A stretch of 64,000 nucleotides of DNA, taken from positions 203,335 through 267,334 of the forward strand of contig WIXG01000067.1 in NCBI GenBank assembly GCA_009869945.1, read 5' to 3'. Origin of the DNA: Mesaphorura yosii. Its lineage: Eukaryota; Arthropoda; Collembola; Poduromorpha; Tullbergiidae. The notes beneath the pieces were generated by a model. It saw only the letters and a program-made list of their open reading frames with translations, had not been told where the DNA came from and searched no databases. Made by a program: the position numbers and the translations under genes. Positions 2,252 through 60,516 of this stretch are shown here, in pieces; the stretch's first letter is position 1, and every line of letters begins with the position of its first letter.

Positions 2252-3109
2252 TTAGTCGAAGCGCCAATTTTATAGAACAACCAGAAATGTCAAACCAGCA
2301 ATTCCGATTTAATTTCCTCTGATTGGAGCCGCCGTACAGTTTTGGAATAAGTATTTGTAATTTAATCAACCGTCGACCGACACCCGTCTTGATTCGCACA
2401 CAAGTTCAAATCGCAGCTCACTTACACACTACAACTCACTGTGTGACTGTGACTCACGCCTAGCCTGTGACTGGGTTAGATTTGTCAACACCAAGCCAGA
2501 GCTCAGCGCAAATCCAGCTCTACTTCTACGAGCAGAGCACCAATTCATTCCTGTAAGCTAATGCAATGATGCGAATAATACGTGGAGTGGAGAATCGCCG
2601 GTTGACCTTGGTTTAATGAAACCTAGTATGTGCAAATTTGCTTCATACCAATTTTATCAATGTTTTGGTGCATTAGGAAAATTAGACATCACCGTCACCA
2701 ATGCAAGATACATTTGGGGCCAATTCTTTCGGCACGGCATGGACCTCCACTCACCCGACCAGGCATGGCTTATGACGGCATGCCGAGTGCATGCATATGT
2801 CCGGCGCGGCTTCGGCACAGGTTTTTGCCATGGCAGCACTCTTTCATAAAGTTGAAAAAATGAAATCCGTACAAAGATCGCTTGCAACCATTCTTGGTAT
2901 TCTTAGCTCAACAGATTGGTGCCAGGGCTTGGAATGTGCCCGGCATCTAGTCTTCTGAAAAATCTGCAGATTTTTCAGCGTGCCATTCCAGACATACCGG
3001 CGGAACGCCCTTCGTTTGCGCCGATTGCGGGACGAAATGCGTGAGCAAAACGGGGCTCAGAACCCACCGACGCGGACATGTGAAGCAAAACTGTGTATTC
3101 GTATATTTT
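2252..3109. other. Intergenic, with a palindrome-bearing dispersed repeat
   Basis: No gene was recognised. A 24-base perfect palindrome at 2955-2978, centred on CTGCAG, is followed by a segment that recurs near 5846. It is listed separately as a repeat. Confidence 0.5.
2955..2990. repeat. Dispersed repeat copy 1 with perfect 24-bp palindrome
   Basis: Positions 2955-2978 read the same on both strands (arm CTGAAAAATCTG). The block ATCTGCAGATTTTTCAGCGTG plus CATTCCA recurs at 5846-5873 with one substitution. Copy 2 has lost the left arm. It may be the end of a small transposable element. Confidence 0.6.
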
Positions 3110-45829: not shown

Positions 45830-46690
45830 ACACCAGGTAGTCGCTTGATTATTTCGTTTAACCTGGACGAAATGGAGTCAACTTCTGCATTGTTTCCATC
45901 TTATAAGTCCACTTTCTCTGACAACAGTTGCATTCGTAGAAGCAAATCCAAAATATTGGTGGAATTCATGTTTCTAAACCCCAATGCTAACTCTGCAGCA
46001 ATTTATTGCTGTTGTTCCAGTTGTCGTCGTAACAGCTCATGCAAGTCCAACTCCTGCTCCTTGAACATATGCCTGTTGACCTTTTGCTTTAACATACGAG
46101 TTAAACATGTGACCAGTGTCTCCATGAACACCTTTCTGAATTCAATTGTGTGTGAATTCTAACGGTTCTAGTCCAACCCCGAGAAACATTTTTCGTTGGT
46201 AAAACGTTGGGGCGATCTCGTAGGCCCTGCATGAAATGATAACTCGCTTAGCGTATCATCTTTATCGTGTGTGAGGTTAAGTTTCTTTCCGAGACGCTGA
46301 AGTGAGTTTTCTAAAGTCTGTCCTTCTGAATCAATCCAGAGAATATAATCATACTCGCTTTCGTATTCATTAGCATATCGTTTTGCAGTGCTTGTCTTCC
46401 CAATTCCGCCCATTCCGACCACTGCGTGCTTCGAAATGATTGCAGATGCTTTATATTCACTGGAGAGTAACTGATTCCTCAAATCTTGAACCAAATATCG
46501 ACCATTTGAATTGGTTCGATTTATAAAGGAAATAATCGTGTCCTTCTTTTCCGGCCACTATTTTTGTTGCAAAGCAAGCGTGTCTCTCTTTGCTGCGCTA
46601 CTTGGTGCACATTCTGACTGACAATCATGTCCAGATTTTAATGCAGCTTCGTAGATCAGACGTTCTAAATGTTTCATTCGTGTTCGCACC
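45830..46690 (-). pseudogene. NB-ARC (STAND/NLR-like) NTPase remnant
   Basis: On the minus strand a frame reads RMKHLERLIYEAALKSGHDC, meets a TAG at 46560-46558, then continues in the same frame for 130 codons (46557-46168). The first residues after the stop are WPEKKDTIISFINR, followed by a clear P-loop, VVGMGGIGKTSTAKRYA, and YDYILWIDSEG. This is the start of an NB-ARC domain, the nucleotide switch of APAF1-like and NLR-like immune or apoptotic proteins. Walker B and later motifs are absent. Further on, helical charged sequence (RKVFMETLVTCLTRMLKQ, LHELLRRQLEQQQ, NSTNILDLLLRMQLLSEK) continues with more in-frame stops. The TAG could be an intron boundary (AAAAATAG before TGG), but the later stops support decay. 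Confidence 0.6.
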
Positions 46691-47228: not shown

Positions 47229-50200
47229 TCATTTGGAAGCAAAGTCGGCCATCCACGTCCTGTACTCCTGGAGTGCTGTCTCGTGGCTTCCAATCATGAA
47301 ACCGAATGCCAGACTTGCAGTTGAATTAAGGATGACGTATGTGTTTCCGTGGAGGTCGGAGAGGAACTCCACCTCAGATGGCAGAGCGTATGGCGTAGAC
47401 GTTTCAACTTGTTTCTTCGTTTGACCTCCAGCATTCACAACCAACACGTGGTCATCGTTCCTGCAAGTTCAAATATGGCGGCAGGTGAAATTTAGGCTCA
47501 TTCAACGGAAATGGATGACAAGATGACTCACTCTGAACTCTGAAGCTTAAATGAATCAAAAATGCTACCTTTGCGAGACGTCCTTTGCATCGTCTTGCGA
47601 GTTCGGTTCGCCCGTGTTGTCAGTGGAGGACGAGGCTGCCAGGAATTCTGTGATGGGGATTTTCATGTAGCTGAGGTACGCTTCGTACGAGACGCGGATA
47701 GACTCGTGCATATGCTCCTTCATTTTGTGTCCGGCGAAGAACTCGAACACGGCATTCACCACTTGCATCTTGATTTTCTGTTTGAATCCAGTCATAATTT
47801 GGTCCACGGCCTTTTGGAACTCTTGCTCAGCCGCAGAGTCCACGAATGCATCGGCCTCCTCCTCCTGCTCTTCATCGTCTTCATCCTTGGCGGGCATGGT
47901 CTGTTTATCTGCTTCCAGCTTCTCGGTTTTGCTCTTGATCTGTTCGTTGAGGTCTCGCATGGTTTGCAGAATGAGTGTTTGAATTTGTTCCTGGTAAGGC
48001 ATGTTGGCTTGTGAGTTCTTGTCGTTGGATGCGAACCATCCCTCGAAGGCGGCCGGGCAGGAGATGGGCATTGTCATCTTCACGACTTGCATCATGATCT
48101 TGACCATTTGTGTGCCCGTGATGTCGCTCAGCAGTTTCTCCAGCTGCAATTCAAACTTGGTTGATGTTGTGGTGACGTCCTCTTCCGACGGAACAATTCC
48201 ACCAGCGACCTTTCTCAAGATTTGCCCTGCTTCTTTTGGTCCCGACGTGGATTTGAGGAGTGCAGTGGCGTTGCTATTGTAGGCGGTGACCTCTGCCTGG
48301 AACTCCTCGGTCAGAAGAAGGGAGTCGAGGAGTGAATTCAGGCTGGACTGGTTGTTCGAGATGGATTCCTGGATTTTATTTTCGATGAAAGAGAGAAGAA
48401 GTGCCTTTCCGAAGGACTTGCCGAGTGCGGTGATGAGTCTGAGTACAATTGCCTTGAGAAGATGTTTGGTGCCTTGGAAGGCGACTCCAGCGAAGGGGAA
48501 GAACCCAGCAACGGCGGCTACTCCCACGGACCATTTCAAACTTGTCTTCTTGTAGGATTTGTACTTGGCCAGGGTTGGGCGGTTACCATCGTACAAATGC
48601 TTGCATGAGTAGTACATGTCAGAGGCTCCTGCACAACATAGAGGGAAAAATTCATGACCTTTTGACCCAATGCTCAACGCTAAAAGTGATGAGAGTGGTG
48701 TTACCTTCAGAGATGAGAACTGCGGCCAGTGGGCTAAGCAAGCCCCCGGAAAATATCTCAATCGCCACTCCTGCTGCAACTTCAACAGCGCCAAGGAGGA
48801 GGATCCCGAGTGCACCGTAGTTCTTGTAGAAGGGCACGAGTTCATCAAAGGTCACGAGTTGGTCGAACAGTGCTTCTTGGATCCACTGTTGCAGCTCCTC
48901 GCAGCAGTGATTCGACTCCAAAGGAATCCTAGAACTGATAGCGTTGTAGTTGACTCGGATTTTATGGTGGAGCTTCAACGAGCCGACCGAAGCGATCAAG
49001 ACCTCCAGAATGTTGTTCAGGTACACCTTAAATTCAGCGTCCTTCTCCTTTTCATCGTTCTTGGTGTTCCGGTGGAACTCGTCAAATATTTTGCGAATTT
49101 GATCCGTGTGTTTGGTTTCGACTCTTTGCCGTATTTGCTTGAGTCTGACCTCCACTTCTTTCTCGCCCGGGCACTTGCTTGACAGGATGACAACAGGACA
49201 CTTGACCCAGCCTTGCTCGATGAGACAATCCAGGATGATTTTTCGGCCCTCGGCCTTTGTGTTTGGGAAGGGTAGAGCCTTGAGCTGAAGGAGCTCTTCG
49301 TCCGAGGCGACGAGTGCAGTTTGCCTGAAGAGACTGTTGGTGATGCGTATTTGTTGGCTGGACAGGATCCTCTCATAAAGGTCAATTTCTTGGGGCAGGG
49401 ATTCGTTGCCTAGTTTATTCAATCGGACTGCATTCATTCTGTCACGGACGATTCTGAAGGGTAGATTTCTGGTCTGAATCCATCCAAACTGGAGAAGTGT
49501 GGTTTTAAGCAAAACCTCGAGCTCCACCTGGTCAGCCTGTTCGTCCCCTTGGAGGAGAGAGGCGAACAAGCTGTGGTCGTACAGTTCCAGGTAGCGGTCC
49601 AGGAGGATCTTGGTCACAGCGTCGGCGTAAACCATCAGTTTTTGTGGGAATGTCTTCCTCTCCTTCCCTGCACGCTCTTTATTCAGTTGATCTTGGGTGA
49701 GGAGAATGATGGCCGGTTTCTTCAGCCCGTCCTTCAAAACAGCTGCTGAGTTTGGGGACGAGGGTTCGATGAACTCCAAGTCCAGACTTTCTTCACTCTG
49801 CGACGAATCCGCAATTGATCGCACAAATCCATGTTTCTCCAATGCCCGTAGGAATCCAATTTTGGTGATGACGAGCCCATCAAAGTCTGTGGGCCCCAAC
49901 ACTGGTTTGTGGTTCTCTTTGAATTCCTTGAGGAGTTGAATCAACGCATCACTTGAACATGGTGCGGCAGATTCCTTCAGTTTTCCAGTGACGCTTTCGA
50001 GGTTAAAGTTCTTGTGTTGTGGGTCATTGGAGAAGAGTTTAGAGGTGAGTCTGTAGTTCTTGCAGAGTTGTCCGTCGTTGGTGAGGAGTTGGAAGAGGCG
50101 TTGAGACTCGTCCTCGCTGTCGATGGCCTTGACATGGTGCTTGAAATACTTGGGGTCGAGTGGTGACTGAAGGGCCGTGTTGATGGCATCCACGTGGTGC

Positions 50201-53200
50201 TGCAGCAGATTGTTCTCGCTGTTGATTTGCTCTTGGAATTTGTTTTGAATCTCCACCTGCCCTTTCGAAGGGTCATTCTCTGACCCCGCATCCGCGGTGG
50301 TTGGTTGGGCGTGTTTGGACACCTCGTCCAACAGAAAGCCTTCCGACGCGTGTTGCTCCATTCGCAGTAGGATCTCTTTCCTTGATTTCAACAAAAAATC
50401 CTTGGTAGTATTCTTGTCAAGCGGGTTCATTTGAAGGGCGACTGCCCCACTGTACAATTGAGACACCTCGGTCAGACAACCGCCTTCGCCCTTATCAGCA
50501 GTTCCCTTCCCACCATTCAAATCGCTTTTCGACTGATCCTGGCCGACTTTGTTGGCCTGCTGGAGGGATTGCAGACTCAATTGATAGTTGGACGGTGAGG
50601 GTGGGACCTTCTCGGTGAAGGGCAGGAGTGACTTGAAGTCCTTCCACATCTGCCCACTGGTGACATATTCTTTGTTCTCCTCGTAGATGTTGTCCAGTTC
50701 TTCAAAGTTTGCCTCCATGGCAGTGGAGAAGGTGGTTTTGCTGCCCACAGTTTCGTATCGTTTGCCGAGTCTGATGAGTTCTGAAGTGAATTGGGCGAAT
50801 CCGCAAGAACTGTCCTCCAGCCTGACCATCAAGGAATCTGTGAATTCTTTGAATTGGTTCATGACATTTACCTTGCCCACATCGTGCTGAAGGTGGAGAC
50901 AGTCGATGGAGTGGCGAATGGAGTCCAACCACACGGCCCAACGGTTGTTCAGAAACTGCAGCTGCAGCTCTCGAATTCGTTTGGGGTGTTTGAGGAGGTG
51001 CGGACTCCTCTTCACCCGCCCGTGCACAAACTTGGTGTACTCGTCGAACAGCTCGTCCTCGATCTTGATTTTTGGCAGATCTTTCTGTCGAATCCGCTCC
51101 ACCCTCTCGCCCTCCCTCTTTCTCCTCTCCTCCTTTACGCTTTCAATTGTCAACTTGACTTCCTCAGCTTGTTGCCCTGCTGACGCAGAAGTTGTGGCTG
51201 ACGTTGACGATGTTGAGGCGGAGTGTTGGATGATGAACTGGACGGTTCCGTTGCCACCTGCACGTGCCGTTCTCCCGAACGCTTGTTTTTCCACTCGGAT
51301 GTTTGTTGGGAGGTACGAGAGGATGACATGAAGTCCAAGTTCTTCAGCGTCCTTGTGAATTTCGAGGTCTGTTCCTCTGCCGCCGAGGTTTGTGCTGAGG
51401 ACGAGTTCGCCTGGTTTCAGTCCCTTCCTCTGCTTGACCTCCTCAGTGAACTTTTGGTCTTTGTCCGAGCTCTGGTAGAGGTGAATGGCGATGAGGCGAT
51501 GCTGGAGATCGGCGTGCTTCCGAATCTGTTGGAGAATGAGGTTGAGTTTGGCGATGTTTTGTGTGATGATGAGGATTGGTTGTTTCTCGCAGTGGGTGGC
51601 CACCGAGGTTGTAATGTTGGCCCACCAGTCCGCAGACTCCGTGGAAATGAGAGCCTCCTCCTCGACCTGCTTGTTGAGTTTGAACCTGGGCATCCCAAAG
51701 AATTCCACGTAGTATTCGTGCGCGAGGAGCTGTGTTTCCTCTGGTCCGCCGAGTGTGCCAGTGATGCCAAAGAGCTTGCCCTTGTGTCGCTGGAAGTACT
51801 TGAGGTTGCTCATAAAGACGCACTTGAGGGTTTCCGCACTGACTTTGGTTTTGTACTTGAGCTGGAGGAACTGGTGGAGTCCGAACGAGAGTTGCATCTG
51901 CGTCTGCTCCACGCCGGTGTCTGCGTCCATGTTGACCACTCGATACTTGTTCTCCTCGATGATGTAGTCTTCGTTGACGGGCATGAATCGAGCCACGAAC
52001 GCCTGCTTGATCCAGATCTCAAGGCGACGGCTCACAAAGTCTGTCATGCAGCTGGGGTAGCGCAGTTCCCTGTCTGATCTCAGCCTGGCCTCCACACTGG
52101 CGCGGACGTTGTTGATGTCGGAGAGGGAGTACTGCCTCCAGCTGCATGGCGTGCAGAGTTTGCGCGAGACCGCATCCCAAATGACGAGGAGGATTGGGCG
52201 AAGGTACTTGAGCTCAGGAATGGTGTGTGACAAGTAGAGCATGTTGGCCCCTTTGTCCAGGAGAAGCGAATCTACTTCGTCCACGATCAGGACGTCCGCC
52301 AGACTCATGATTTCCTTCCCGTGGAATTCGGTGTTGAGAAGGTCGCCTTGGAATCCGCTGAGTTCGCCGTAGACCACGTGGTTGTTGTACCTCTCCGCCC
52401 GCTCCTTGTCCCCGTTCGCTTTCTTGTCGCAGTTGTTGCCCACTTTGAGTCCCAGACTCGCGAAGTAGTCTCTATAGCGTACTTCATCTTCGATGGCAAG
52501 CACGCTGTTGGAGGTGATCACGTGCACTCGCGCCTTCAACAAAGCACAAAACGAAGCAAACATGGCAACGATGCAGGATTTGCCTTCTCCAGTGTTGATT
52601 TCTCCCATTTTGCCAACTCCCTTAGCTAGACCGCTGATGAGGAACAGGAGGGCCACCAACTGAGAATTTCGTGGACTTCGAGGCTCTTTTGCCGGGGTGC
52701 TTATCGTCGCTCGTCTCGTTATTGTAGGCCCCGATTCCTTTACCTTTGTCAATGTCGTGCTTTCGGTTTCTGACTTCGACTGAGGCGATGGTGGTGCGTT
52801 CATGTGGTACTCCATTGCTCGGTAGATGAGGACGATGGTGTCCAGGACGACGAGATCCTCGGAGGAGAACTTGATGGTCCAACTACGGTCTTTGTATTTC
52901 TTCTGCCACTGCGCGTGCAGCCCCGCCAAGTCTTCCTTGTACTGGGCCCTTTCGGTGATGGGGTGAAGGAATTTGGAGGAGAGCCGCGAGTTGCTTCCGT
53001 TCAAAGTGTCGCGGATTCGTTGGACCTGTGCGTGGATGAGGTTGAGGAGTTGTTCGTTGTCGGTTGCCTTCCTCTGGTTCATCGGGTGCGCCTTGGCCTC
53101 GGTGATGAGTTGGTCCAGATTCAATTCCTTCTTCCTCTTGTTCGCGCAGTACTTGTCGATTTCATCGAACGCCACTTCCAGTTTGAATCGATTGACGGAT

Positions 53201-56200
53201 CGGATGAGGATGTCGACGGTTGCCTGTTCGAGGATCCACTCACCACTGCTGAATTTCACCAGGACTCTCATCATCTCTTCTTCTGGCATCTTGTCGGAGA
53301 GGCAAGCGTCGAGGAGTTGATCCACGAGACGTTGTCCCACTTCTGTATCCATTGCCATGCACTTCTCAACTGCTTTGGATGACAAATTGCGGGCCCTTAA
53401 GGACTCGAGACGAATGAGGCGAGGCCAGTAGGAGAGAGGACTCACTTTGAACTCAATGGCTGCAAGCCTGCTCAGTTGCTCCATGCCAATCCGATTGACT
53501 CCGTTCAGAATATTCACAATGTCTGTGATAGTCATGCTGGAGGAGGCGTCTGCAATTTCAGCCTTCAGTTTGGGATGAAAGATGCGGAGGAACCTGAGCT
53601 TCGGTTCTTTCAGTGGCGGAGCTACGAATTGAGACAAGGCCATCTCAATGGACGGTTCTCGTGTGGTGTTCATCTTTGGGTTGGCGCCTGTCAAAGGCTT
53701 GGCATCGTGGAGAATGCATTCCAAAAGAATGTGTTTGAACCAGTTGAAGTGGAACGAGTTTCGCACGATGGACTCCAGGGTGTTCATGGGGATGTCCCTG
53801 ATGAAGACGAGGAAGGCGCAGGCGTCCTTTACGGTTGAAAAGATGGTGAAGGACTCCGTCTCCAGCTCCTCGTAGATGAAGGCCAGGAGTTGCAGGAGAC
53901 GACCTCGGTCGCTCTTGTGGCAGAGGAGGTAGGTCAGCTTGAATTCTTCGAGGACGCGTTTAGTCTGGAGCATACGCAGAAGTCTCTTCATGAGCCGCCC
54001 ACGTTTCGAAGTGATGAGCGTCTGCTGCCGGACGATCGCATGCAGACTTTCCTTCTGTTCCAGTTGGGCCGTGTTCAAGGAGAATAGGAGTTGGAAGATC
54101 GTGTCAAAGTGAAGCTTCTCCAGGTGCCCGGCCCAAACAGTGGGAATTTTGGTGGATAAGATGGCCTCCATTCTGGTTGTCAATCTACCGAGCACTATCT
54201 CCAACTGATTTTTGCCTCCGTGTTTCTCGAGAAGCCGGACGAGGGACTCGACGTGCAGCTGTTCGTCTGGTCCGAGTAGAAGAGTTGATTTGATTGTTGA
54301 GGGATTGAATTCTGGTGCAACGAGTCTGTAGAGAACCTCCTGCGTCGTTGCACCTTCAATGTTGAGTAATGCGTGTGCTGGTCGTGAGGTGTCACCTAAA
54401 CCTTTCTGGATGAGTCGAACGAGGAGTCGTCTGCATGGATGGGAGTAAGGAATGCTGAGGAGGACTTTCGCAAGATGTGTCGGAGTGGATGTGACTTTGT
54501 CTTTGAATGCAGCCAGGAATGTGGTCCAGAGCCGGTCCTTGTCCTGCACATCCTCGTTGAGTAGAGCCTGAATGAGTTTGTGATTGGCGACGAGGAGTTT
54601 GTTGGAGTCGAGGGAGGCAGAACGGAGAAGGAGTTCCATTTCCACGTCGAATGGGAAGTTGCAGTAGAAGTCTCGCGTTTGGATTTGCACGTGGACTTCG
54701 TACTTTGCTCCATCGCTTGTTCTCTGCTTATTTGAATCGACGGGATAAAGTGCATTCAATTTCACAAGCATGTCGTTCGCGTTGTCCTTGTTTTTGACAT
54801 TCAACAAGTTGAGTTGATTGTTGACGATTTCCTGCGCCTGATGGAGTGAGTTTGCGCATGCGTAGTACATGGTGGACAGACTCTCTTGACGTAGGCGCTT
54901 GGCTTCTTCTAGAATAGTTTCCACATGTCTCCATCGCTGCCTGTAATGATTCAGCTCCTCCAGGACGGCCCCTGTGGGGTAGTTGGTGGAGTCTGGGTCC
55001 AAGTGCTCCGCGGCCACTCCAGTGGATCTCTTGAAGCCTTCTTCCGCTGTGACTTCCCTCAGGTACGAAGCCTTGGTCTCATCCAAGCCATTTTTGGTCG
55101 GGCAGATGAATGAGTGGAGGAGGAGCATGAACAGACGCTCTGGCTCGGACTCTTCCTCCGTAGAGCTCTTTTTCAACGGAGGCCAGGAGAACAGGTTGAG
55201 CACCTCGCGAATTGTGAGTGAGTTGAGCGGTTCCACCTTGTCGCGTATTTCGTCAACAAGACGGTCCACGTCTGCTGCATCTTGCAGTGCATCTAAATCT
55301 GATGAAAACTTATCGAACCACTCCTGGTCAATGTCTTCTTGTTCTTTGTCCTTGTATTTGTGCAGAAGGAAGAGTGTGAATCTCTTGACCGAGAAGTCCA
55401 GGTAGCTCTTGTCCTGTGGCTGAAGGCGAGCAGCAAGACGATCCACTTGCTCCTTCAGGCGTTCATCTGTGAAGGTGATTCCTTCCATTTCAGCCGTGAT
55501 CAATTGAATCAAGTCGGAGTAGTCGGGGGGATCGTAGCGTCTCTGCTCGAGAGTCAGAGTCCGCAGCAGGAGCTTCAGGTACCTCTTGTCTTGCTCGTCG
55601 AGGGTGGTCGTTTGGCCAATTGTCTCCTGCAGCTCCTCCAAAGTAAAGACTTCCGCTTCCTCTTCCGAAGCTTCTCGAACGGAGTTGAGAGCATGAAAGA
55701 AGAGGTCGTCCATGCAGATTGCGAACACAGTTTTCAGGTAGTTGTGGATCTGACTCAGATTGACTTGTCCATTCTGGTAGGCTGGATGTTGGGTAATGGA
55801 GGGAGGCACGTGTTTCGCGGTGAATTCGTCAATCACTTCCAGGATTTTCCCGACGTTGGATTTGTCTAGGGCGTCCAACTTTTCTCGCAATTTCTGCATT
55901 TCTCTACAACGACTTTGTTGGACCAAGTACAGCTGGAGTCGACAGATGGAGAATTTGACGTAGTTTCTGATGCGTGGGTCTATCGTGCCTGACTCGTTCG
56001 AATCGATGGGCATGAACTCCAACAGACTGGCAATCAGAGACTCCGAAGTCGATTCCAAGGAGTTCACATCACATTTCGCCTTCACTTTGGTCAAGTCGAC
56101 TTCAGGCAGCACAGCTTGAATTGCGGAACCCAATTTGGAGCAGGCGTCCTTGCTCTCAGGTTGGTGGAGGTTATCCCAAACCGTGGCTTCTATTCGAACC

Positions 56201-59200
56201 AGCTCTTCAGTACTGAAAGGTACGAGCCTTCCATGCCAGAGTTTGCCCACGTGGAGCTGGCAGAGGGTGCGGTTGAGGAGGCTGTTCTCTCCTTCCCTTC
56301 CCTCTGCATCAATCGCTTTGGTGATTGCGTTCAGAAATTCGTTCATGACGAGACTGGAGGACTGGGTGTCGACGCAGCTGTGGCCGCTGCCCGCGTACAG
56401 GCTGCTCAGGCACTTGTCCAGCGACGACCCTCCTCCCTTCAGCGCATTTTCGCACTGCTCGTACTGCTCTATCCTGGTGCTAAAGGCCAGGTCCAAGAAT
56501 TCAGACTCTATCAGCGCCACGAATTCCTTTTCCACAGTTCTCAGTTTATCGTCGTCCTCTTTCAGCTTTCGTCTGATCTGGGCGAGAGAGGGCGCCTGGA
56601 ACACTCGTCTGTAGTAATTTAGCAGGTCGTCCTTAAGTTGGTGGAGCGGACTCTCATCGCTGTTGGTCCCGTTTGTTGATGCAGCGCCTGATTGTCGGGA
56701 TAGTGAGAGAAGTGTCTTGACCTTAGTTTTAGCCTTATCCAAGGCAGTCAGGTCCAGGTTCATGTATGGAAGCAACGTGGAAATTTGGTGGGCCGAATCG
56801 GCGCTAATGTGTTCGAAAAGCCATTGAGCGTTGACGTGATCCTTGAAGAGCACTTTGCTGAAGTCCATATTTTTGCTGCTTTTTCCGTTGCTGTCGTTGT
56901 CGAGGAGTGCAGTGAGGAATTCCTCAAGGTCCAGGTGCTTGCATCCAAAGATGTGGAGGCGGTTCATCTTTTCGTAGAAAATGGCGCCTTCTCGTACGAT
57001 GCCCCTGACGATTCTCATGTGCTGAAGTTTCTTGCCCCACACGATGTCCAGGCCTTGTTTGAACTTTCCTTTCTTGTTGGTCTTTGCATTCCACTTGATG
57101 AGGGCGTGGTGCTCGATGTGCTGAGCATGAATTTCACTCAGGAGACGACGAAGTTGTGGAGCCAACTTGTTTGTAGGTTTCAGAATGGAGTCAAGGTGCT
57201 TGATTCGACTTTTAAATTTGTCGCTCATCTCGTTGTTGTCGTCGTCCTCGTTCCAGGTAAGGACACGACATCTCGCGACCCAATCCACGAACGTAGTTTC
57301 TCCATCGAATTCCTTGCTCAGATGTTTCTTGACGAGTAGATCGCCTTGGTAGGTGAATGCATATGCCACATCCTGAGTGAATTGGTTGCTACAATACTGA
57401 AGCCACTCCTTCCGCTCCGCGTCAGGCTTCAGACTCACCATGTTCGTGTAGAATTTCGACAGAAAGGCCTCCATGGGCTGGGAAATGGTGTTCTTGGTCA
57501 GCCGCACCAGGTCGAGCAGATTTCTTTCGATCAGGGCGTGACGCTCTGTTGGAATCTCGGCGGTAAGTCTCAGGAAGAGAAGATAATTTGCATTTTTGGC
57601 CTGAATCTCGAAGAGTCTGCCTGATGTCTTGGACACAGGGCCTCCTGCAGTATTCATGGTCGCATCTTCCTCTTCGAGTGCGTTTGTGGGGGCCTCGCGG
57701 ATAACGGTGGTCGTTTGTTCTGTGATTTGTTGGTGCATGAGGGCATGTTGTGCGGTGGCGCTGAGTTCGAGGGCCTCCTCCTGCGCCACCTTCATGTGCA
57801 CCGCGATCTGCTCCAGCTCCTTCACCTTATTCTCTGCCTCTTCCTGTTGTCGCTCTGCCTCCGCTGACAGTTCGACGAGTGCATTCATTCGTGACTTTCC
57901 TGTGGCCACTTGCGCAGTTCGACTTCGCTTGCGCACCTCGAGGTCTTGGATTTCCTGGAGTTGCTGACGGAGCTCCTGATCAGTTTTGCTAAGACCTTGA
58001 TCGTGTGCCTGCGTCTGTTCTTGGAGTTTGTTCATGGCGTTCTCTGCCCTCGCAGCTCGTTCCATTTCCTGCGTTTGGGTGGTGGTGACGACACTCGCTT
58101 TGAGCGCATTCACGCTTTGAGCCTTGATTTGGTTTGCCTTGGTCGTGCTCTTCAGGACTTGTGTATTTTGTTGCTTTTGTTGCGTCACTTTGGTCGTCTG
58201 TTGCGTGTACTCGGGCTCACGTCCTGCTGCAATGCGATAACCATTCTTCACGTAGCCTGGCAGTTCGATGGCTCTCAAATTGTAGTCGTAGCTGTGCAAC
58301 CAGTCGTACCAAAGGCCTTCTCGCGACCACCCATCGTCCTTCCCGTGTTTCCCGTGACCACCATGATCCCCAGGATTTCCTGCCATCCCACCCGTCCCAG
58401 CCTCGCCATCCTCGTGTTTCTGCTCGTACACTTTGTTTGATGAGGCGATGACTAGGGCCAGTCCACCTGCCCCACCGCCGCCCCTGCAGCCGCCTTTGCC
58501 TCCAAGTCCCCCGGGCTTGCCTGGCTCTCCCAGTCCTCCCCTGTCGATTCTTTGATATTCCTCGAAAATATCTGCCCAGAAGGAGGGATGAGGCAAGTCA
58601 CCATTCCTTCCGTCGACGCCTTTTCTTCCTTTGTGACCGTCTCCACCATTCTGGCCGTCCCCACCAGCCCCGCCCCCGCATTTGAATTTAAGGTTCTGGT
58701 GGTTGATGACCGCTCCGATGGCTTCCAAGTGGACACTTCCTCCGTGTCCACCGGTGTGACCATCGAGTCCATCGGCTCCCTTGTCGCCCTCGTTACAGCC
58801 GTTCTTGGCTTTCAGAGTTGCATGTTTCCTTTGGCCATGGTTCCCGGAGACGTCGATTTCGATGGTTGAGTCAGCCACAATGATGTTGTTGGACACGATG
58901 ATCAAATTGATTCCTGGCATTTTGAGACCTTTGTCGATGACCAAATTTCCTTGGCACACGATGCGCACTTGCCTCGGGTTTTCCAGTTTGTTGAGGTGGT
59001 TGTGGAGCTCTTGGAGGATGCTGGAGAGGATCAGGTGGTGGTTGGCGCGCACAATGGGCTGTCCATCTTCGTCGACCTGAACTTCGGGAATGGTTGTGAG
59101 ACTGGTGAGTGCGTCCAGGAGCTGAGCACGGTCGCCAGGAAGCTCCTTCGCTGCTCTCCTCCCAAGAAATTCATTCTTTGGGAGGTTTAGAATCGAGACC

Positions 59201-60516
59201 AATTTCTGTGTCATTTTGCCCATCGAGACAATTTCATTCCAGTCAGTTTTGTGGAGTTCCTTCAATTTGGACTTGAGTTTGGGTTCGGGGTTGAGGTTGA
59301 TGAGGCTGTAGCAAAGGGAAGTGATGGCCTCCTCCTCCTTGAGGGCCTCAACCTCCGCCCTCTTCTTCTGTAGCGCCTCCTTCAGCTGTTTGTTCTCACT
59401 CGTGGATTTCTGGAGCTTGGACTTCTTTTTGTTGGCTTCCTTCTCGCGCTGCTTGATGTCTGCAAGAAGTTTTGCGAGCTCGGCTTCCTTCTTTTGAATG
59501 TTTGCTTCGAGCTGCTGCTGTTGCTTGGCCAGTTTTTCTCTTTTCTCGAGTGCATGACTCGCATCCTCCTCATACTTTTGTTTCTGGACGAGGACGAGTT
59601 CCCTGGCGGGGTAGTAGAGTTCCATCGTGATGAGGCGAAGCAGGCTCACCCGCAGCTCAGTTTGCACCGCCAAGTCACAGCTTGACTCCAACTCGATCAA
59701 CTTCTCAACCATGAGGCTGGCTCGACCTTCGTTGGGTGGAGAGAGTGCGAGCCAAATGGCTTGGATGGACTCACAATCGACGAGTCTCTTGTGGAATGAA
59801 CCGATTCGGTTGAGAGTGTCCACGTAGTCCTGGTCAGGACGTTCTTGGATCTGGAGTGCCATGACTTGGTTGCAGTATGCCTTGAGGAATCCGTTCGAAT
59901 TGAGTTGTTGGATCAGATTGTGGGCATGCAGTTTGGGGGTGGGGTAGAGCAGACTCTGGCCACATACCAATCTCAAAATCAATGACTCCTCCCTGTTCCT
60001 ATCCGCCAATTCTTCAAATAGGAAAATGTCATGGTCGTTGTAGTCTTTCTCGATCGAAAACTCATTGCGAGCCCTTGTATCGACATTTTCTGGCGACCCT
60101 GCTTCGACAACATCATCGCTACCCACAGGCAGGATCTGCCGTCGGTCAGAAATTCTCATTTGACGATCGATTGTGACAACGCGACGGTCCTTGAGGTCGA
60201 CTTGACTGAACTGGGCCAGTAGTTTGAAGTACTCGGCCTCAAAGGCTGAAAGCTGGAGCTTTTTGTGCTGGAGACGTCGCAGTTGGGTTAGGAAGACAAG
60301 AGAGGCTTCGCCCAGGACATCATCGGTCAGGTAGGCCCATTCGATATGGAAGTCATGGAACTGGGACTCGTCGAGGCCAATGACTACCCACGGTCTCCCA
60401 CTCAAGTGCTGCAGCGTCGCGATGACGAGAGAGTCACTGTACGACTGTGTGGTCGTGATGCTAAGGCCACAGTCGTGCTCCGCCAGAGTGCGCTCCATCT
60501 TGACTTTCTTTTCCAT
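47229..60516 (-). CDS. Giant protein with SecA-type ATPase, collagen-like stretch and coiled coils
   Basis: Three coding exons: 60516-48705, 48628-47569 and 47460-47229, giving 4,367 residues. The first coding ATG is at 60516. A 5' UTR exon ending at the donor CG|GTAAGC (60875) is probably spliced to 60536. Coiled coil lies at about residues 305-400, a Gly-rich collagen-like run (GDKGADGLDGHTGGHGG) at about 565-730, and Gln/Ala-rich coiled coil at about 770-935. A very long helical region follows. A SecA motor occupies about 2615-3100: Walker A TGEGKS near 2642, LIVDEVDSLLLD near 2742, the GLHQFLQLK hinge near 2879, GITGTLGG near 2915, LSTNLGGRGTDL near 3042 and QAFGRTARAGG near 3078. Hydrophobic segments lie at about 3900-4010 (GILLLGAVEVAAGVAIEIF and WSVGVAAVAGFFPFAGVAF). 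SecA normally drives proteins across bacterial or plastid membranes. The role here is unknown. Confidence 0.9.
51220..52670 (-). other. SecA ATPase region within the giant gene
   Basis: Both nucleotide-binding halves are present and in SecA order. NBD1 has GEGKS, HVITSNSVLAIEDEVRYRDY, VVYGELSGFQGDLL and VDEVDS. A shortened insert sits where the preprotein-binding domain would be and keeps DYII-E-x-x-x-YRVVNMD and GLHQ. NBD2 has KLFGITGTLG, NLGGRGTDL, GLHVILSYLPTNIRVEKQ and GRTARAGG, with the arginine-finger region kept. The usual GRSGRQGDPG is replaced by GRTARAGGNG. A basic helical stretch (ERRKREGERVERIRQKDLPK) stands where the helical scaffold would begin. No C-terminal zinc motif was seen. 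Confidence 0.88.
58325..58825 (-). repeat. Collagen-like Gly-rich coding segment in the giant gene
   Basis: About 165 residues are rich in Gly with interrupted G-x-y triplets, for example GGDGQNGGDGHKGRKGVDG, GEPGKPGGLGGKGG and GMAGNPGDHGGHGKHGK. The triplets are too broken for a stable collagen triple helix and may form a polyglycine-type fold or a flexible linker. Confidence 0.75.

Follow-up and report, generated by a model that had tools for sequence, protein, structure and literature searches.

The window analyzed here is a stretch of 64,000 nucleotides from the springtail Mesaphorura yosii (contig WIXG01000067.1), and it holds a nuclear springtail gene that encodes a giant SecA-motor protein. 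On the minus strand, an open reading frame from 60648 to 48652 runs for 3,998 codons (log10 chance at the window's base composition about -77). Its first ATG lies at 60516, and removal of two introns yields a SecA giant of 4,367 residues that ends at 47229. An earlier note, made from the sequence of this DNA, had proposed a 4,367-residue protein at 60516-47229 in an animal nuclear gene with introns; splicing the two introns reproduced the length and coordinates exactly, and the GT-AG introns and animal neighbor genes bear out the nuclear assignment. The features of the gene are as follows.

48705..60516, minus strand: coding exon 1, from the ATG at 60516; residues 1-3937 and part of 3938
48629..48704, minus strand: intron 1, 76 nt, GTAACA..GTGCAG (GT..AG); interrupts the hydrophobic module
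47569..48628, minus strand: coding exon 2
47461..47568, minus strand: intron 2, 108 nt, GTAGCA..TTGCAG (GT..AG)
47229..47460, minus strand: coding exon 3, stop TGA at 47231-47229
50647..52746, minus strand: SecA-like motor, residues 2591-3290 as folded
52576..52593, minus strand: Walker A TGEGKS, residues 2642-2647; the K2646 column is K in 128 of 128 aligned cores
52270..52281, minus strand: Walker B DEVD, residues 2746-2749; 99-100% conserved in the 128 cores
51256..51381, minus strand: motifs V (GRGTD) and VI (GRTARAG), residues 3046-3087
48270..48972, minus strand: hydrophobic module, residues 3849-4057, crossing intron 1; hidden Markov model (HMM) E 1.1e-30
48760..48816, minus strand: hydrophobic helix of the module, residues 3901-3919, mean hydropathy 2.14
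47229..48269, minus strand: C-terminal tail, residues 4058-4367 (310 amino acids, aa), interrupted by intron 2
58228..58809, minus strand: glycine-rich segment, residues 570-763; longest G-X-Y run 9

The SecA-type motor and its locus

SecA is the textbook motor of bacterial export. Judged by its sequence and predicted model, the motor of the window protein is a real SecA-type motor with complete catalytic motifs. Those of both motor domains (Walker A, DEVD, TGT, GRGTD, and GR..R.G) are all present; further motif positions are GLHQ at residues 2879-2882, TGTLG at 2919-2923, GGRGTD at 3045-3050, and GRTARAG at 3081-3087. In the predicted model, two motor domains and the site of the preprotein-binding domain are followed by a long helix resembling the scaffold and by a pair of helices. 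Pfam SecA_DEAD matches the protein at E 2e-24, and among the PHROGs the motor matches phrog_32805 (unknown function) at 3.7e-33. NCBIfam SecA is matched at up to E 3.9e-41, yet the score of 141 bits stays far short of the curated cut-off (862), so that the window SecA represents a divergent branch rather than a housekeeping SecA.

A nucleic-acid helicase of another SF2 family, merely SecA-like, would account for the observation that RIG-I and DEAD-box folds align to the two motor domains too. These alignments cover about 340 residues, whereas the AlphaFold motor model aligns to SecA over 574 residues at 3.4 Å; by profile, a solved SecA scores E 1e-82 versus 7e-8 for the best DEAD-box chain. 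Profile and fold together reject this alternative, which we consider extremely unlikely, and the profile search against SF2 families that the earlier note had suggested, in which SecA beats every other family, did not overturn its claim of a SecA-type motor.

The preprotein cross-linking domain PF01043 has no Pfam match in the window, and the profile alignment covers the second half of the domain; in the seven paralogs of the same genome, the C-terminal half of PF01043 is matched in six, over the cut-off in three. As to the helical scaffold domain and two-helix finger, model helices 534-578, 589-609, and 621-645 lie inside a match extending as far as SecA residue 776, an alignment at the level of fold only. 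Relative to bacterial SecA and SecA2, the window protein has in common the Walker A and B motifs, motifs V and VI, and the pair of motor domains, and it probably also has the C-terminal half of the preprotein-binding domain and scaffold-like helices; it differs in being about five times longer, in falling far under the NCBIfam cut-offs, and in the helical wing domain, for which no counterpart is apparent in the element list of the motor model.

SecA moves polypeptides with SecYEG, and a plain SecA-type translocase partnered with springtail Sec61 would fit the SecA fold, the helices that align to the scaffold region, and the SecY-family locus of the M. yosii genome, which is probably Sec61-like. 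However, the search of this genome (93.0 Mb, 1,127 contigs) recovered neither a bacterial-type SecY partner nor a second SecY-family locus. The length of 4,367 residues, the patchy distribution, the many copies, and the lack of an apparent wing counterpart likewise count against a plain translocase, and we regard it as very unlikely.

Ten other frames of the window were scanned, and matches to LRAT, S28 peptidase, histone deacetylase, and SHMT pass the cut-off; the neighbors zf-UBP (behind the deacetylase) and CDV3 are matched below the cut-off only. The SHMT, its exons spliced by eye, has best matches of up to 82% identity, and its closest named animal is Folsomia candida (77%). A bacterial contaminant or chimeric assembly, the other check raised by the earlier note, is not supported, as introns and animal neighbor genes occur on one contig. 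Since the SecA gene begins 3.5 kb from the end of the contig (C67), its far 5' side is short, and no known gene has been matched to it. On the 3' side, an AATAAA was found by eye at 47123-47118, and an NB-ARC NTPase domain (E 1.2e-6, over the cut-off) lies about 0.7 kb from the SecA gene on the same strand, in the open reading frame 46171-46557.

Coiled coils of the window protein were judged by eye only. The stretch that the earlier note had called collagen-like is indeed glycine-rich, but collagen is too strong a term, as the longest G-X-Y run is just nine triplets and true collagen is not supported. Glycine-rich segments at the same threshold occur in 20 of 148 other giants and in none of the seven paralogs.

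Relatives and host changes

The M. yosii genome contains nine SecA_DEAD matches, eight of them within open frames of 2,999-4,724 codons. A protein search with the core region scored 1,889 candidates and gave 315 matches; the best 120 of the 315, used here, are 2,212-6,902 aa long; their sources include insects (flies, bees, ants, a bug, and a moth), crustaceans (Daphnia, Artemia, and an ostracod), rotifers, a fluke, fish, Wolbachia, and a Rickettsia. From a scan of prokaryote genomes, 80 loci were kept, with core HMM scores of at least 319 bits in 26 and at most 278 bits in the other 54. The 26 belong to Rickettsiales, Legionellales, Bacteroidetes, Parachlamydiales, Elusimicrobia, and a few others; not all are giants, because their complete frames span 1,023-5,255 aa (several further frames are cut by contig ends). 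Legionella worsleiensis (L066, G014) encodes an ordinary SecA and has SecA_DEAD over the cut-off in four frames of 1,349-3,519 aa, with no match to the hydrophobic module in this genome. Among viral contigs (IMG/VR), a relative is encoded in 2 of 191 candidate stretches (L122 and L123), both giants of about 3,556 aa; L122 groups in the tree with a contig of a Neisseriaceae metagenome-assembled genome, and L123 is not among the tree rows.

The window gene is not the first SecA reported in animals. The earlier note had taken SecA to be absent from them, a surprise now out of date because passages of Duplouy et al. (2013, PMC3639933) already describe giant eukaryotic secA for ants, Daphnia, mosquitoes, and protists; the 315 core matches contradict it as well. 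These passages report two giant secA genes in Wolbachia wBol1, with relatives in Harpegnathos, Daphnia, and mosquitoes, and already describe transfer between eukaryotes and bacteria, while a passage on the eukaryotic association module of phage WO counts SecA among its eukaryotic-like domains (PMC5062602). A table from a reproductive-switch transcriptome of Daphnia similoides contains a SecA DEAD-like transcript (PMC5037449, in part), and at least one animal relative is therefore transcribed. The window protein resembles the giant eukaryotic-type secA of these accounts in giant length, SecA core, occurrence in animals and Wolbachia, and evidence of inter-domain transfer. The passages concerned (PMC3639933, PMC5062602) treat the SecA domain and its transfer, and the module, exchanged tips, and peptidase-like domain described below are not in them. 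The window copy also differs from the Duplouy group in its placement, as it falls into a subclade together with Pseudolycoriella, Folsomia, and two of the springtail's paralogs.

In a tree of 86 rows, the giants form one side of a fully supported branch (100, starred) against 15 canonical SecA rows, and the same split has a support of 99 (starred) in a tree of 73 rows, which is the former minus nine unnamed and four long-branch rows. The window is sister to a protein of Pseudolycoriella hygida (P0003; 100, starred; 51% identity); next comes a five-row group with Folsomia and the paralogs C837 and C221 (92, not starred, in the 86-row tree). A second group unites the ostracod Darwinula with five further springtail copies (99, starred), and giants of Harpegnathos, Daphnia, and Wolbachia share the giants clade with the window (86-row tree). 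At least six host changes between animals and bacteria are required in the 73-row tree, and a single animal clade of giants is rejected on the same rows (p-AU 2.7e-81, approximately unbiased test); neither the count nor the test settles the direction of transfer.

Two side observations concern the same trees. The cores of bee, brine shrimp, and moth (P0069, P0064, P0045) are 80-84% identical to each other and group with Wolbachia copies (P0048); such likeness despite distant hosts suggests either recent transfers or symbiont reads in some of the assemblies. The Elusimicrobia giants L065 and L091 (4,433 and 5,255 aa) are the earliest to branch within the giants clade, and neither has the module.

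A conserved hydrophobic module and exchanged tips

The hydrophobic C-terminal region pointed out in the earlier note is seen in hydropathy and is conserved in relatives, as one or two hydrophobic helices lie several hundred residues past the motor in many giants. An HMM built from 89 seeds, the window among them, found a module of about 220 aa in 136 of 156 giants of animals and intracellular bacteria, 47 of these being non-seeds. The 156 giants comprise the window, its seven paralogs, 120 listed proteins, and 28 frames from bacteria or viral contigs, near-duplicates (many from Wolbachia) included. The module roughly follows the pattern G..QI..G, then LI.EG..D, then G.FSW..Y...K..S, and the part in exon 1 of the window matches the module of paralog C221 at E 9.2e-8. 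In M. yosii it is found beside all eight long-frame SecA copies, in the same frame in six; C546 and C593 have it in the next frame 3', and one of two C593 pieces contains an in-frame stop, which may reflect either an intron or decay. Of 14 bacterial genomes reached from SecA loci, 13 contain the module, which is found at 21 places in all and at 17 of these in one frame with SecA_DEAD; 12 of the 14 genomes also hold a separate ordinary SecA, which is cut short in one. Nothing in Pfam passes the cut-off in the last 620 residues of the window protein, and PHROGs and PADLOC hold no match for the module of C221. Contigs C994, C876, C826, and C765 of M. yosii carry matches to the module only, with internal stops on three of them, which suggests birth and death of family copies.

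Past the module, giants with similar bodies have exchanged their tips. In 150-residue blocks, the Wolbachia protein P0048 is 55-100% identical to P0050, P0054, and P0056 along the body and 19-22% in the last block; the corresponding values are 50-92% and 14% for the bee Osmia and 36-94% and 14% for Artemia. With the moth Chilo, P0048 has 64-68% identity in the last two blocks, so this tip is common to both. Among 99 giants that combine core and module with at least 450 aa of tail, 59 pairs reach a core identity of at least 90%. The module and the 300 aa behind it are common to all 59, the final 200 aa to just 23, and 51 tip clusters fall to one core cluster. Among 30 animal proteins, two of them M. 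yosii paralogs, tips are unrelated in 78 of the 118 pairs with a core identity of at least 45%, with the provisos that the last 200 aa of animal gene models, used as annotated, may be wrong and that tip pairs are not independent, given near-duplicate giants.

Some of these tips resemble toxins. A non-specific endonuclease is matched in the tail of P0006 (1.2e-7) and, below the cut-off, in Daphnia P0011 (5e-5), and an LHH nuclease in P0029 (1.4e-18). The tail of bacterial locus L055 matches a WHH/colicin-type nuclease, that of L051 narrowly exceeds the threshold for an ADP-ribosyltransferase toxin family, and paralog C762 has a weak MUG113 match near its end (0.006, below the cut-off). About 185 aa past the module, 74 of the 156 giants carry a domain with G-H and N-C-L motifs, found with an iteratively built profile, that by eye looks like a permuted papain or OTU peptidase.

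A selfish or weapon gene that is still active, with the motor serving to release the protein's killer or anti-competitor tip, would be compatible with these nuclease-like tips and with the tip exchange seen between near-identical Wolbachia bodies and between animal copies. Yet the window copy has no recognizable tip domain and most tested tips match no known toxin domain, so we judge an active weapon improbable.

The SecA giants share with the polymorphic toxins and endosymbiont effectors of PMC3482391, as far as its passages go, a constant body and exchangeable C-terminal tips, some nuclease-like or ADP-ribosyltransferase-like, and many giants also share a papain/OTU-like domain (by eye) before the tip. 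For Amoebophilus effectors, a passage of this source lists "SecA-like helicase-related domains" among the variable C-terminal domains (Zhang et al. 2012, PMC3482391). In the giants, unlike that case, SecA is the constant central motor rather than the variable end, and the tip of the window copy is not a known one. Giant secreted toxins of actinobacteria carry a SecA-like ATPase predicted to aid secretion, according to a passage of PMC8195603 (eLife 2021); likened by this description, they resemble the window protein in having a SecA-like ATPase inside a giant protein, and differ in being actinobacterial and in combining it with GT4 and MFS transporter domains.

As far as searches of the open-access literature show (subscription papers and preprints lie outside), the conserved hydrophobic module and the exchange of tips are new, as is the rejection of a single animal clade.

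A proposed membrane-seeking device

We propose, with about even confidence, that this springtail nuclear gene belongs to a family of SecA-motor giants traded between animals and intracellular bacteria and encodes a membrane-seeking translocase or remodeler kept by its host. The hydrophobic module would insert into a membrane, and the motor would spend ATP on moving a polypeptide, most simply the C-terminal part of the same chain or a client bound to it, through that membrane or out of it. By itself, SecA is able to form protein-conducting channels in lipid, though of low efficiency (PMC5456053). In many relatives, the tip may be set free by the peptidase-like domain. The exchanged tips, of which a few are nuclease-like or ADP-ribosyltransferase-like and most are unrecognized, would be cargo, and the family would behave like a self-delivering polymorphic toxin. 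A delivery device is proposed because a conserved motor, a conserved module, and an exchangeable end are what a device with cargo should have. The window copy keeps motor and module and has a tail without recognized payload, and for this reason it would most likely be a cytosolic, membrane-seeking, ATP-driven translocase or remodeler of proteins; the host would have kept it, plausibly to deal with intracellular microbes in conflict with it, and the copy may have been disarmed or domesticated. The earlier note's self-contained machine acting on membranes or large assemblies was a fair guess in this regard, and the idea becomes more specific with a module that is conserved and tips that are swapped among relatives. 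A broader version, in which animals and intracellular bacteria share and exchange self-delivering polymorphic toxins with a SecA motor and membrane module of their own, the motor threads the tip through a membrane without SecY, and some animal copies, this springtail gene among them, became tip-less host translocases, is put forward more tentatively.

Several results weigh against the proposed device. The proposal does not account for the N-terminal 2,600 residues of the window protein: frame residues 500-1250, used as query, found two matches, both SecA giants, and P0003, though missing from the two, is 26% identical to the window over residues 75-1196. The module is absent in 20 of the 156 giants, P0003 and both Elusimicrobia giants included, some of the 20 being cut by contig ends or gene models; P0003, the closest relative of the window, ends soon past the motor as annotated. 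Structure prediction for the L052 module region gave a model of low quality (predicted local distance difference test score 51.1), too poor to search, and hence we make no fold claim; since this model failed, a pore or membrane hairpin is suggested by hydropathy and conservation only. SecY-family matches in the springtail genome are confined to one locus. Related tips are kept in 40 of the 118 animal pairs, e.g., between Daphnia species and between Harpegnathos paralogs, and an Adineta pair (core 92%) with a 34-residue tip match was scored as different solely under the 50-residue rule. Only P0006 and P0029 pass a cut-off among eight tails of listed relatives, most of which lack a known toxin domain (Rotaria P0021 and Osmia P0069 match weakly to families of no clear meaning, and three others match nothing); among ten bacterial tails, two pass (L055, L051), two fall below (L057, L062), and six have no match. 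The peptidase-like domain is absent in 82 of the 156 giants, the window included, and the window tail has no Pfam match over the cut-off and no detected toxin domain, so that the toxin analogy is drawn from relatives.

The tails of the window, C837, C221, and Folsomia P0004 are short (262-312 aa) and lack the peptidase-like domain, which could instead point to a domesticated immune factor that recognizes or remodels intracellular bacteria or their vacuole and uses the motor for pulling proteins from their membranes, with no self-delivery. A multigene family with degraded module copies and the NB-ARC exon just downstream of the window gene also fit such a role. However, the nearness of a single NB-ARC exon proves nothing, and the four tails have no detectable likeness to one another; we hold an immune factor to be rather unlikely next to the host-kept translocase or remodeler proposed above.

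If the proposed device is wrong, a large, little-studied family of bacterial-type animal genes is still documented. If it is right, SecA has a second life in giants that cross between animals and symbionts, with motor, membrane module, and payload in one chain. This would constitute a new delivery principle and would provide candidate factors for symbiont-host conflict, as in Wolbachia and Rickettsia, and SecA action without SecY would become a testable question.

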